Below are positions 35,287 to 41,300 of a stretch of DNA of 47,624 nt, piece by piece (positions within the stretch are counted from its first letter, which is position 1; every line of letters starts with the position of its first letter). The stretch covers positions 1 to 47,624 of the forward strand of contig CAIUPP010000049.1 in assembly GCA_903901045.1 (NCBI GenBank). The letters are read 5' to 3'. The notes under the pieces were generated by a model that saw only the letters and a program-made list of their open reading frames with translations, was not told the origin of the DNA and searched no databases. Source of the DNA: an uncultured Planctomycetota bacterium. Its GTDB lineage: Bacteria; Planctomycetota; Brocadiia; CAIUPP01. The position numbers and the translations under genes are program-made.

Positions 35287-35395
35287 CCTATTTCCCATCT
35301 GACCCCGGTTACTTGCCCAGCCCTATTTCCCGCCTGCCGCCAGTTACTTGCCCAACCCTATTTCTCACCTGCCGCTAGTTTCCCGCCTGGCCCTT
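35287..35395. repeat. three degenerate ~35-bp tandem repeats
   Basis: Units begin at 35287, 35321 and 35356, with the pattern CCTATTTCCCxxCTGxC, then GTTACTTGCCCA; the third is diverged. The region 35261-35422 contains no recognisable gene and separates two convergent operons. Confidence 0.7.
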
Positions 35396-35422: not shown

Positions 35423-35764
35423 TCACGGTTTCCGCAGCCGCCCCAGTTCGGACGCGTCCTGCCCCATTTGCTCACGCAGACGCTGGATTTCCTGAACGTA
35501 GCGGCAGTCCGCGTAGCCCCCGTTGTGCTCGATAACGAAGCGGATGGGGACGCAGATGAATTCCTCGCCGTCCACGGTGCGGTGTTTTCCGAGCCGGTCC
35601 TGATAGACCTCGCAGGTATAAGTCCCGTCTTTCAGGAGGCGCAGGCGTTCGCAGGGATGGCCGTCGGAGGAGCCGCAGCAGATGCCGCAGCGGGTGCAGA
35701 GTTCTTCAGTGTAGAACTCCTGCGAGGGGAACCAGTTCCGCGGGGCGCTTTTGGAGAGGCTCAC
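35423..35764 (-). CDS. CxxCGxCC-type (YkgJ-like) putative metal or iron-sulfur cluster protein
   Basis: A 113-residue protein with 'EELCTRCGICCGSSDGHPCERL', the cysteine motif of the YkgJ family (once annotated as putative Fe-S or zinc cluster proteins), and further cysteines in 'TYTCEVY', 'EFICVP' and 'YADCRYV'. The start is the GTG at 35764 (VSLSKSAPRNW), which overlaps the TGA of the lipoprotein gene in a GTGA arrangement; an earlier start would lie inside the lipoprotein gene. The function of the family is unknown. It is the last of four genes in the PilZ/S24-like operon. The two strong C-C and C-x2-C pairs suggest metal binding. Confidence 0.75.
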   Translation of the reverse strand: MSLSKSAPRNWFPSQEFYTEELCTRCGICCGSSDGHPCERLRLLKDGTYTCEVYQDRLGKHRTVDGEEFICVPIRFVIEHNGGYADCRYVQEIQRLREQMGQDASELGRLRKP

Positions 35765-36225
35765 GGCGCCACGAGCGTCATGGAGTTGAACGCCTCCATG
35801 CTCCTCTTCTCCTGGCTCTGGACCATGCACATGGTCGTAACGCGCGCGTCATAGGATCCCGGCAGGGAGCGGTAACGGCCCCACTGATCCATGCTCTCCT
35901 GCGCCAGGCCGTTGCACGCCCAGGCGATGCGGGGGCGTTCCTGGTGGGTGAAGTGCGGGTCGCTCCACGCGTCGGCGGAGCGATTGTGCCAGTCCTGCCA
36001 GGTCTTGAGGGAGAGGTCCTGCTGCTCCGTGAGCACCCCTTCGACGTCGCCCAGTTGGCTCATCTCTTCATCGAGCACGAGCATGCGCGCGCGGGCGAAG
36101 TCGGCTGCGCCGATTCCCACGGGCATGAGCCGCCCGTTGCCGGCGGATTCGTCGGCGCCGATGGACATGCAGCCTCCGGCCAGCGTCACCAGGGCGCCGA
36201 GGGCGATCCCAAACAGGACTTTCAT
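35761..36225 (-). CDS. lipoprotein of unknown function
   Basis: A 154-residue protein with signal peptide and lipobox 'LVTLAGGC' (Cys19). The mature part has 'FARARMLVLDEEMSQLGDVE', 'WQDWHNRSADAWSDP' and 'AQESMDQWGRYRSLP', a mainly helical sequence rich in Trp, Gln and Met. I do not recognise the family. The ATG overlaps the stop of the preceding gene (ATGA) and its own stop overlaps the YkgJ-like start, so it is tightly locked into a four-gene operon with the PilZ/S24-like protein. Confidence 0.75.
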   Translation of the reverse strand: MKVLFGIALGALVTLAGGCMSIGADESAGNGRLMPVGIGAADFARARMLVLDEEMSQLGDVEGVLTEQQDLSLKTWQDWHNRSADAWSDPHFTHQERPRIAWACNGLAQESMDQWGRYRSLPGSYDARVTTMCMVQSQEKRSMEAFNSMTLVAP

Positions 36226-36491
36226 GCGTTCTCCTTTCGCACGAACGCCAGATCTTTGACGCGGAAGAGCGCCTCAATGGAGCTGCGGCTGAATTCCGCA
36301 ACCGTGGCGTCGTACATTCGTTTTCCGTCGATCAGTCGGAAGCATTGCGCATCGTGAACCGTCACAAAATCATCCGGCGTGCGGTGCTTGAAATCCCAGA
36401 TGTTGCCATCCGGCCCCAGGCGCATCTCGCCGAACACCCGGTAGGAGGTGGTCAACAGCATCACTTTTTCACGCCGTTCGCTTTCAGCCAT
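36222..36491 (-). CDS. small uncharacterised protein, DUF6812-like
   Basis: An 89-residue protein starting MAESERREKVMLLTTSYRVF. The central 'YRVFGEMRLGPDGNIWDFKHRTPDDFVTVHDAQCF' resembles small DUF6812-type proteins, which have a 'YRI.G.IHLP..GR..DFLN....FI.V..A' pattern; this match is from memory and only moderately sure. It ends in '...ALFRVKDLAFVRKENA'. The ATG at 36491 is preferred; a GTG five codons earlier (36506) is the alternative. It sits 37 bases after the PilZ/S24-like gene and overlaps the lipoprotein start. Confidence 0.6.
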   Translation of the reverse strand: MAESERREKVMLLTTSYRVFGEMRLGPDGNIWDFKHRTPDDFVTVHDAQCFRLIDGKRMYDATVAEFSRSSIEALFRVKDLAFVRKENA

Positions 36492-36528
36492 TCCGGACGC
36501 CCTCACACAGAGAGAAGATAGAGCCGCA

Positions 36529-37647
36529 TCAGGGGATATCCTCGTAATGTCCGATCAGCCGGCAGATCGCGCGGGCTTCCGCGCGGCGCACGATGCGCTC
36601 CCGATAGGCCGGATTCAGCGACCGGAGCCGGACTTCGTCCTTGTCGAAGAAGACCTGCGCCACCTCGTCGGAGGCGCGCGTTTTGATGAAGGCGATATCT
36701 CCGTCCTTGACCTGCTCGGTGGCCGAGAAGATGAGGATGCAGCCGCGCCGGAAGCCGAGGCCGCCGGGCTGCTCCATGGCATCGATCCCCAGTTCCACCG
36801 CAAAGCAGTCATCCGGGGACTTGAGGCGCGAGAGGTAGAGCAGTTCAGCGGCCGGCCCGACGGGCTTGTTCGCTTCGGAGAAATAGAGCCGCGTGTTGCT
36901 GCTGAGGCGGTAGACGTTCATGGGCCGCGCGCCCACGGTGGGCTCGACCTCCGCCGCGGGTTCCTGAGGGGAAGCCGCCTCGGTGAGATCCTCGGAATCG
37001 GCGGCGGCCGGGTACAGCACTTCCACGTCCAGGCCGGCCTCGGCCGCTTCGATCACGGCCATGATCACGTCGTCGGTCACCTCGAACTTGTCCAGGGCGT
37101 CGATCAGTTTGAGCAGCGCCACCGGGCGCTTCACCTGCTCGCGCGCCTTCGCGGCCTCGGCGGGTTTCTCGGGAGCGGGGGCGGCAGGCGCCGGAGCCGC
37201 CGGGGCGGGAGCCACGGTGGTCGCCGAGGTGGCACTGACGGTGCTCTTCTCCTGTTCGCGCTTGACCGTCGTGGCCGTCTTGTGCTTGGGGATAAGCTGA
37301 TCTTCGGCCCAGGCGATCTTGCCGGCCTGGTCCGCGGTCAGTTTGCCGTAATTCATGTTGACGGAGTAAGCGGGCTGCTTGAGGAGGCTGATGCGGATGA
37401 TTTTCTTGACTTCGACGTCGATCTCAAGGAAATCGCGCACCCCTTTGACGTGCAGGGTGAGGGTCAGCTTTTCATCCTGCGAGAAGGGCTCGCGGGCGGC
37501 CATTTCGATCGCGCTGCTGTTGATATCCAGAAGCCGCGCGCGGTTGAAGCCCGCTTTGACGGGCTTGCCGCGCGTTCCCACTCGGTGGTACTCGATCTCC
37601 ACGTTCTCAAGCGGAATCCGGTCGCGGATCTCGGTGCGAATCGCCAT
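36529..37647 (-). CDS. PilZ-like domain fused to an apparently inactive LexA/S24 peptidase-like domain
   Basis: A 372-residue protein in three parts. Residues 1-105 look PilZ-like ('FNRARLLDINSSAIEMAAREPFSQDEKLTLTL', where D-x-x-S-x-A replaces the usual DxSxxG). Residues ~125-250 are a linker rich in Ala and Pro with a helical patch (LLKLIDALDKFEVTDDVIMA). Residues ~265-372 look like a LexA/CI S24 domain: 'CFAVELGIDAMEQPGGLGFRRGCILIF', 'VKDGDIAFIKTRASDEVAQVFF', 'LRSLNPAYRERIV'. In active S24 proteins the nucleophile is the Ser of G-D-S-M; here it is Ala290 (IDAME). The general-base Lys aligns with Val332. So the domain should not cleave itself and may be a binding or dimer module. PilZ domains bind c-di-GMP; the degenerate motif makes that uncertain. 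A clear AGGAG precedes the ATG. Confidence 0.65.
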   Translation of the reverse strand: MAIRTEIRDRIPLENVEIEYHRVGTRGKPVKAGFNRARLLDINSSAIEMAAREPFSQDEKLTLTLHVKGVRDFLEIDVEVKKIIRISLLKQPAYSVNMNYGKLTADQAGKIAWAEDQLIPKHKTATTVKREQEKSTVSATSATTVAPAPAAPAPAAPAPEKPAEAAKAREQVKRPVALLKLIDALDKFEVTDDVIMAVIEAAEAGLDVEVLYPAAADSEDLTEAASPQEPAAEVEPTVGARPMNVYRLSSNTRLYFSEANKPVGPAAELLYLSRLKSPDDCFAVELGIDAMEQPGGLGFRRGCILIFSATEQVKDGDIAFIKTRASDEVAQVFFDKDEVRLRSLNPAYRERIVRRAEARAICRLIGHYEDIP

Positions 37648-37718
37648 GCGATCTCCTGGTCAAACGCCCACCCTAGGACTGAATATAATGCCGGGGGCGG
37701 GCAAAGTCAACGGAGGCA

Positions 37719-37778
37719 ATGGTCAATGGGCAACGGTCAATTCTCAATGGGCAATTGACCATCGCCAATTGCCCATTA
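37719..37778. repeat. CAATGGGCAA repeats with 12-bp hairpin
   Basis: CAATGGTCAATGGGCAACGG is followed by AATGGGCAATTG (37746-37757), exactly inverted at 37766-37777. It lies between the divergent PilZ/S24-like gene and gyrA. No gene was seen in 37648-37915. Confidence 0.8.
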
Positions 37779-37915: not shown

Positions 37916-40495
<2,580 letters not shown>

Positions 40496-40586
40496 ATCCT
40501 CCGTTCTCCTCCTTGATGTCCTTGCTTCGCGCCCCTTCTGCGGAGAGAATTGCTCGTGGGCGAAGATCCGCGGAAGGAGGCTACCC

Positions 40587-41300
40587 ATGAGTCAGTCGCA
40601 GCAACAGACGCGCAGGGCGTTCATTCAAATCGGGGCGGCGGCCGGGGCGGGCCTGCTGCTGGGGGGCTGCTCGGCAACGCAACGCCCCTCCGCGCCTTCT
40701 CCCAATCCGCAAGAGGGAAACGTTTCCCCCGCCGAAGACCTGATGCGGGAGCATGGGCTGCTCCGGCGCATTCTGCTCGTCTACGGCGAGGCGCTGCGCC
40801 GCATGGAGGACGGGCAGGAGCCTCCGGCGGAGGCGCTGGCGGACTCCGCCTCCATCATCCGCTCCTTCGTCGAGGAGTACCACGAGAAACTCGAAGAGGA
40901 CTCCCTCTTCCCCCGCTTCCGCAAGGCGGGTAAGCTCGTGGATCTTGTGGAGGTGCTGCTTGAGCAGCATCAGGCCGGGCGACGCCTCACCGACACAACG
41001 CTGAAAGTCGCCAACGCTCAGTCGCTCAAGCTTCCCGCCAATCGCGAGACGCTGGCGGACTCCCTCCGGCAGTTCATCCGCATGTACTCCCCCCACGCCG
41101 CCCGCGAGGACACGGTGCTTTTCCCCGCGCTTCGGGAGGTTCTCTCCGACAAGGAATATGACGACCTCGGGGACGCGTTCGAGGACAAGGAGCAGGAGCT
41201 TTTCGGCGCGGACGGATTCGAGAAGATGGTGGGGCGCGTGGCGGAGATCGAGAAACGGCTCGGGATATACGATCTGAAACAGTTTACCCCGGTGGGGTGA
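40587..41300 (+). CDS. Tat-exported lipoprotein with hemerythrin-like HHE domain
   Basis: A 237-residue protein. Its signal combines a twin-arginine start (QQQTRRAFIQIGAA) with a lipobox (LLLGGC), implying folding before export and membrane anchoring. Four iron-ligand regions of the hemerythrin fold follow: 'MREHGLLRRIL', 'VEEYHEKLEEDSLFPRF', 'LLEQHQAGRRLT' and 'YSPHAAREDTVLFPAL'. Hemerythrins bind O2, NO or peroxide at a di-iron site; sensing or detoxification is an inference. The ATG at 40587 follows GGAAGGAGG, 91 bases after gyrA. A DoxX-type gene follows. Confidence 0.9.
   Translation: MSQSQQQTRRAFIQIGAAAGAGLLLGGCSATQRPSAPSPNPQEGNVSPAEDLMREHGLLRRILLVYGEALRRMEDGQEPPAEALADSASIIRSFVEEYHEKLEEDSLFPRFRKAGKLVDLVEVLLEQHQAGRRLTDTTLKVANAQSLKLPANRETLADSLRQFIRMYSPHAAREDTVLFPALREVLSDKEYDDLGDAFEDKEQELFGADGFEKMVGRVAEIEKRLGIYDLKQFTPVG

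Follow-up and report, generated by a model that had tools for sequence, protein, structure and literature searches.

A PilZ-like domain fused to a degenerate S24 domain in a conserved planctomycete operon

LexA, lambda CI and UmuD share the S24 fold (PF00717), in which self-cleaving peptidases carry a Ser-Lys dyad and an Ala-Gly (or Cys-Gly) scissile pair. PilZ domains (PF07238; for instance, those of Alg44 and MrkH) consist of a six-stranded barrel and a C-terminal helix and bear the c-di-GMP motifs RxxxR and (D/N)xSxxG, although these motifs predict binding imperfectly: PixB, which is devoid of the motif Ser, still binds c-di-GMP (PMC8316039). PlpA is a PilZ protein that acts without binding c-di-GMP (PMC8316039). 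SipA, a dead signal-peptidase-fold protein whose Ser and Lys are replaced by Asp and Gly, has been proposed to act by binding (PMC4049620). Here we describe a protein that joins an S24 domain to a PilZ-like domain and is encoded by the first gene of an operon in a stretch of 47,624 nucleotides from an uncultured Planctomycetota bacterium (contig CAIUPP010000049.1; hereafter, the window). It shares the LexA/CI/UmuD fold over residues 240-372 and the barrel-and-helix architecture of PilZ in its N-terminal part; however, unlike LexA, CI and UmuD, it lacks the dyad, the Ala-Gly pair and a DNA-binding domain and, unlike typical PilZ domains, it escapes the Pfam model and has largely lost both c-di-GMP motifs. 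The parts are already known; what is new is the pairing of two degenerate modules inside a conserved operon. A literature search found no paper on a PilZ-S24 fusion and none on DUF6812, the family to which the product of the second gene is related.

A four-gene operon and its conservation

Four minus-strand genes, spanning positions 37647-35423, form an operon in the window, as originally predicted. They encode the PilZ-like/degenerate S24 fusion of 372 aa (gene 1, 36529..37647), a DUF6812-like protein of 89 aa (gene 2, 36222..36491), a predicted lipoprotein of 154 aa (gene 3, 35761..36225) and a small CxxCGxCC cysteine-cluster protein of 113 aa (gene 4, 35423..35764). For gene 2, the conserved ATG at 36491 was preferred over the GTG at 36506, and for gene 4, the GTG at 35764 was chosen over 35830 by alignment to the relative described below. 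Four-base overlaps are present at the gene 2/3 and gene 3/4 junctions, so that the overlapping start and stop codons claimed for the operon exist at two of its three junctions only, because 37 bases part genes 1 and 2.

The sole other full-length relative found is encoded by a planctomycete MAG (L002:6001-7122; the same contig as in G001), in which the four-gene order, the 37-base gap and the gene 2/3 overlap are kept; the proposed search for the same gene order in other genomes thus recovered it in the family's only other examined genome. The window and L002 proteins are 62%, 71% and 62% identical for genes 1, 2 and 4, respectively, whereas gene 3 retains its position but shows no detectable similarity between the two (BLASTP E 0.29). 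Gene 1 is preceded in both loci by TTGAC-17-TATATTC, which in the window is part of a promoter-like site, TTGACT-17-TATATT (37682..37710, minus strand), and by AGGAGAT directly upstream of the start codon. Most changes in genes 1, 2 and 4 fall at third codon positions, as purifying selection predicts, and second-position changes are rarer in gene 2 (0.11) than in genes 1 and 4 (0.22-0.25); since the full-length lead protein is represented by two sequences only, those of the window and the relative, these figures are a two-point comparison. Both loci are flanked by gyrA on one side and by uspA and V-type ATPase genes on the other, with gyrA (window 37916-40495; L002:3331-5925) lying in opposite orientations.

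The PilZ-S24 pairing was detected with a whole-protein profile in 2 of 75 class genomes examined, both from one family; no further fusion was found in these 75 genomes or, using the N-terminal profile, in 294 genomes of the phylum. A plasmid search yielded nothing similar to the fusion, a viral-contig search with gene 2 gave no result, and a PDB sequence search with the lead protein returned linker matches only.

As judged by profile comparison, the gene 2 product is a remote relative of DUF6812 (PF20660), in agreement with the original prediction. The two align nearly end to end (probability 89%, 72 columns, about 22% of the aligned residues identical) with a score of 35.4 against a shuffle maximum of 17.8 (none of 60 shuffles as good), and gene 2 and stand-alone DUF6812 members find each other in reciprocal HMM searches, although no single-sequence match to the Pfam model was obtained in the own genome at E values up to 10. 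The lipoprotein call for gene 3 is likewise upheld by a lipobox in the window protein, whereas the relative's product has a signal-like N-terminus that departs from the strict lipobox pattern. A relay of signals to the envelope, which had been suggested from the layout, finds no support, its sole basis being this lipoprotein gene, unconserved in sequence between the two genomes. Gene 4 resembles CxxCxxCC (YkgJ/YcgN-type) proteins in its small size, the CxxCGxCC motif and further conserved cysteines but has no Pfam match and only a weak match to the NCBIfam YcgN family (E 0.84). It has clear relatives in two other genomes, G002 and G170, amid other neighbours. Genes 3 and 4 may share a transcript with the first two genes and yet not belong to the same device.

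The lead protein and its S24 relatives

The C-terminal domain of the lead protein (residues 240-372; 36532..36930, minus strand) is a LexA/CI-type S24 domain, as had been proposed from the sequence. It matches Peptidase_S24 (PF00717) with an E value of 3.5e-9 (36.8 bits, cut-off 23.3), is modelled by AlphaFold2 with good confidence (about 75-95) and has LexA and CI as its closest structures (Z 15.1 to Thermotoga maritima LexA in the VIA comparison and 14.8 to CI); the list of structural matches also contains SipA with Z 7.7, a level that common folds reach. The catalytic positions were located by alignment to the LexA of the same genome and to what we take to be the E. coli LexA sequence, in which S119, K156, A84 and G85 fell where expected. 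The dyad is indeed missing, with Ala290 (codon 36778..36780, minus strand) at the Ser position, as first proposed, but the Lys position is occupied by Ala330 (36658..36660, minus strand) and not by Val332, which is off by two columns. Nor is the substituted pair fixed: the relative has Thr and Gly. The scissile Ala-Gly is also absent, being replaced by Ser-Asn in the window and Gly-Asn in the relative, and the loss of both features bears out the notion of a non-cleaving S24 module. Because RecA-stimulated autocleavage requires the Ser-Lys dyad, and the scissile pair is absent too, the idea that the protein reads a DNA-damage-like signal lacks support; a separate intact LexA is encoded in the same genome.

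The N-terminal region (residues 1-120; 37288..37647, minus strand) has a PilZ fold with a degraded c-di-GMP motif, even though gene 1 has no match to Pfam PF07238 at the cut-off. A two-row N-terminal profile search of the phylum returned genuine PilZ proteins as the best outside matches, and the profile-profile comparison with these proteins, a set chosen via that same search, was strong (hhalign 96.8%), with 0 of 60 column shuffles reaching the score. The similarity to the PilZ domains of its own genome is weak (22.7%), yet above all 60 shuffles. As the first full-length AlphaFold2 model was poor beyond the S24 part, the N-terminus was modelled separately, giving pLDDT values of 68-89 over residues 11-120, a PilZ fold extending over about residues 10-118 and a best 19 Foldseek matches that are, every one, PilZ proteins; the input alignment included PilZ rows, and the model is thus not wholly independent of the PilZ assumption. 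Both folds of the original prediction are therefore supported by the structure and profile comparisons it had called for. Between the two domains, Ala/Pro-rich linkers enclose a helical segment (residues 174-213; 37009..37128, minus strand) that is highly similar in the relative, with helices predicted at moderate confidence at 178-187 and 192-203. No helix-turn-helix (HTH) match to Pfam was found in gene 1 at E values up to 10.

Alignment shows that the c-di-GMP motif is broken in both homologues, which have E6xxxR10 and, at (D/N)xSxxG, DINSSA in the window and DISPEM in the relative: Glu replaces the first Arg in both proteins, Ala or Met stands at the Gly position, and the Ser is Asn in the window protein, which retains R10 and D41. 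This degradation weakens the suggestion that a second messenger is read, and c-di-GMP sensing was dropped as the first choice. The messenger itself is probably present in this organism, judging from nine GGDEF domains encoded in the genome, along with three other PilZ domains of ordinary type.

Many relatives of this S24 type emerged when 392 genomes of the phylum were scanned, and 29 of the best were examined in full. Ser and Lys without insertion were found in 12; the remaining 17 (L056-L060, L062, L064-L066, L068-L070, L072, L077-L079 and L082) all have Arg for Lys together with an insertion that follows the GDSM motif; Ser, too, has been lost from 10 of them. A dead dyad unique to the lead protein is thereby rejected, and its loss is a property of the wider family. 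The N-termini of the relatives are HTH domains, one or two in the Lys-less set. These Lys-less HTH-HTH-S24 and HTH-S24 regulators resemble the lead protein in the short insertion, the loss of Lys and the frequent loss of Ser but differ from it in their HTH domains, which it lacks, bearing a PilZ-like domain instead, and in having Arg rather than the Ala of the window protein at the Lys position. In a tree built without the dyad and insertion columns, both PilZ-S24 proteins join the Lys-less HTH-S24 protein L070 (support 95/91), and only two changes are needed to explain the three labels; support for the intact-dyad group is 43/83, and the Lys-less proteins may have one origin or several. No PilZ-, DUF6812- or CxxCGxCC-like genes were found near the HTH-S24 loci within the flanks examined (mostly 1.5 kb). 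Planctomycetes thus appear to possess a broad, non-cleaving family of HTH-S24 proteins without cleavage residues, for which the loss of these residues closes the usual route to SOS-type switching, but which automatic annotation would label LexA-like or peptidases.

Possible roles of the fusion protein

Both folds, the missing dyad, the largely lost c-di-GMP motif, the conserved operon and the promoter are computed features of the locus. Tentatively, and with a little less than even confidence, we favour the reading that the lead protein is a cytoplasmic, non-cleaving S24 dimer that acts as an adaptor, offering its PilZ-like domains to a protein partner. The PilZ-like domain would occupy the place of the HTH domains in the S24 relatives, the S24 part would have no role beyond dimerisation and protein binding, and the PilZ-like part would bind a protein rather than c-di-GMP. 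The likeliest partner might be the small DUF6812-like product of gene 2, since no other member of the operon is as well conserved.

The four genes could instead be functionally unrelated and joined only by a shared promoter. That gene 3 is unconserved in sequence and that relatives of gene 4 have other neighbours (mutS in G170, tonB/exbBD-like genes in G002) is consistent with such an arrangement, but the order, the 37-base gap, the gene 2/3 overlap and the promoter have been kept at about 60% protein identity, with gyrA inverted, and we consider it somewhat unlikely. Binding of c-di-GMP through altered residues, with a consequent shift in the S24 dimer state, is less probable still: the closest solved structures of the PilZ fold are c-di-GMP receptors, the genome has its nine GGDEF domains, R10 and D41 are kept and PixB binds in spite of its missing Ser (PMC8316039), whereas the change of the first Arg to Glu in both homologues, the replacement of Gly by Ala or Met and of Ser by Asn in the window, and the three ordinary PilZ domains elsewhere in the genome argue against it.

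Equally improbable is a transcription regulator whose PilZ-like domain, loosely resembling MrkH, has assumed the DNA-binding role of the HTH domains and is dimerised by the S24 part. The S24 relatives are HTH regulators, and the nearest structures include MrkH, which its PDB entry calls a c-di-GMP-dependent transcription regulatory factor; however, no HTH was detected in gene 1 and the PilZ-like domain has no strong basic character (19 K/R versus 17 D/E). Most doubtful of all appears a SipA-like chaperone in which a peptide, perhaps derived from a co-encoded protein, is still bound in the dead S24 cleft. SipA retains the signal-peptidase cleft without Ser and Lys (PMC4049620) and is in the structural match list, but at a Z of 7.7 that common folds also attain; by inspection, gene 1 encodes no signal peptide or membrane segment, whereas the gene 3 product is predicted to be exported and is unconserved in sequence.

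A bolder proposal, which we regard as unlikely, is a novel type of signalling adaptor: a c-di-GMP-independent PilZ domain would have taken the place of the DNA-binding domains in a cleavage-dead S24 regulator and would form one device with the DUF6812-like protein and the envelope lipoprotein. Under the favoured reading, the S24 dimer module would prove transferable from DNA-binding domains to a PilZ-like domain, even with the catalytic residues and the ligand motif both gone.

Further features of the locus and of related genes

The window contains three 35-base direct repeats (35287-35391; CCTATTTCCC...TTACTTGCCC) in the interval that separates uspA from the operon's end, and short direct and inverted repeats based on CAATGGGCAATTG lie between gene 1 and gyrA (37715-37777). 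After gyrA comes an open frame (40365-41300) that encodes a hemerythrin domain and a TAT-like signal region. Elsewhere, a DUF6812 gene adjoins a PilT-like ATPase gene (L086:3-1749). In G002 (L038:3750-7078) the CxxCGxCC gene is again preceded by a small gene of lipoprotein-like appearance, as well as by a second cysteine-cluster gene and tonB-, exbB- and exbD-like genes.
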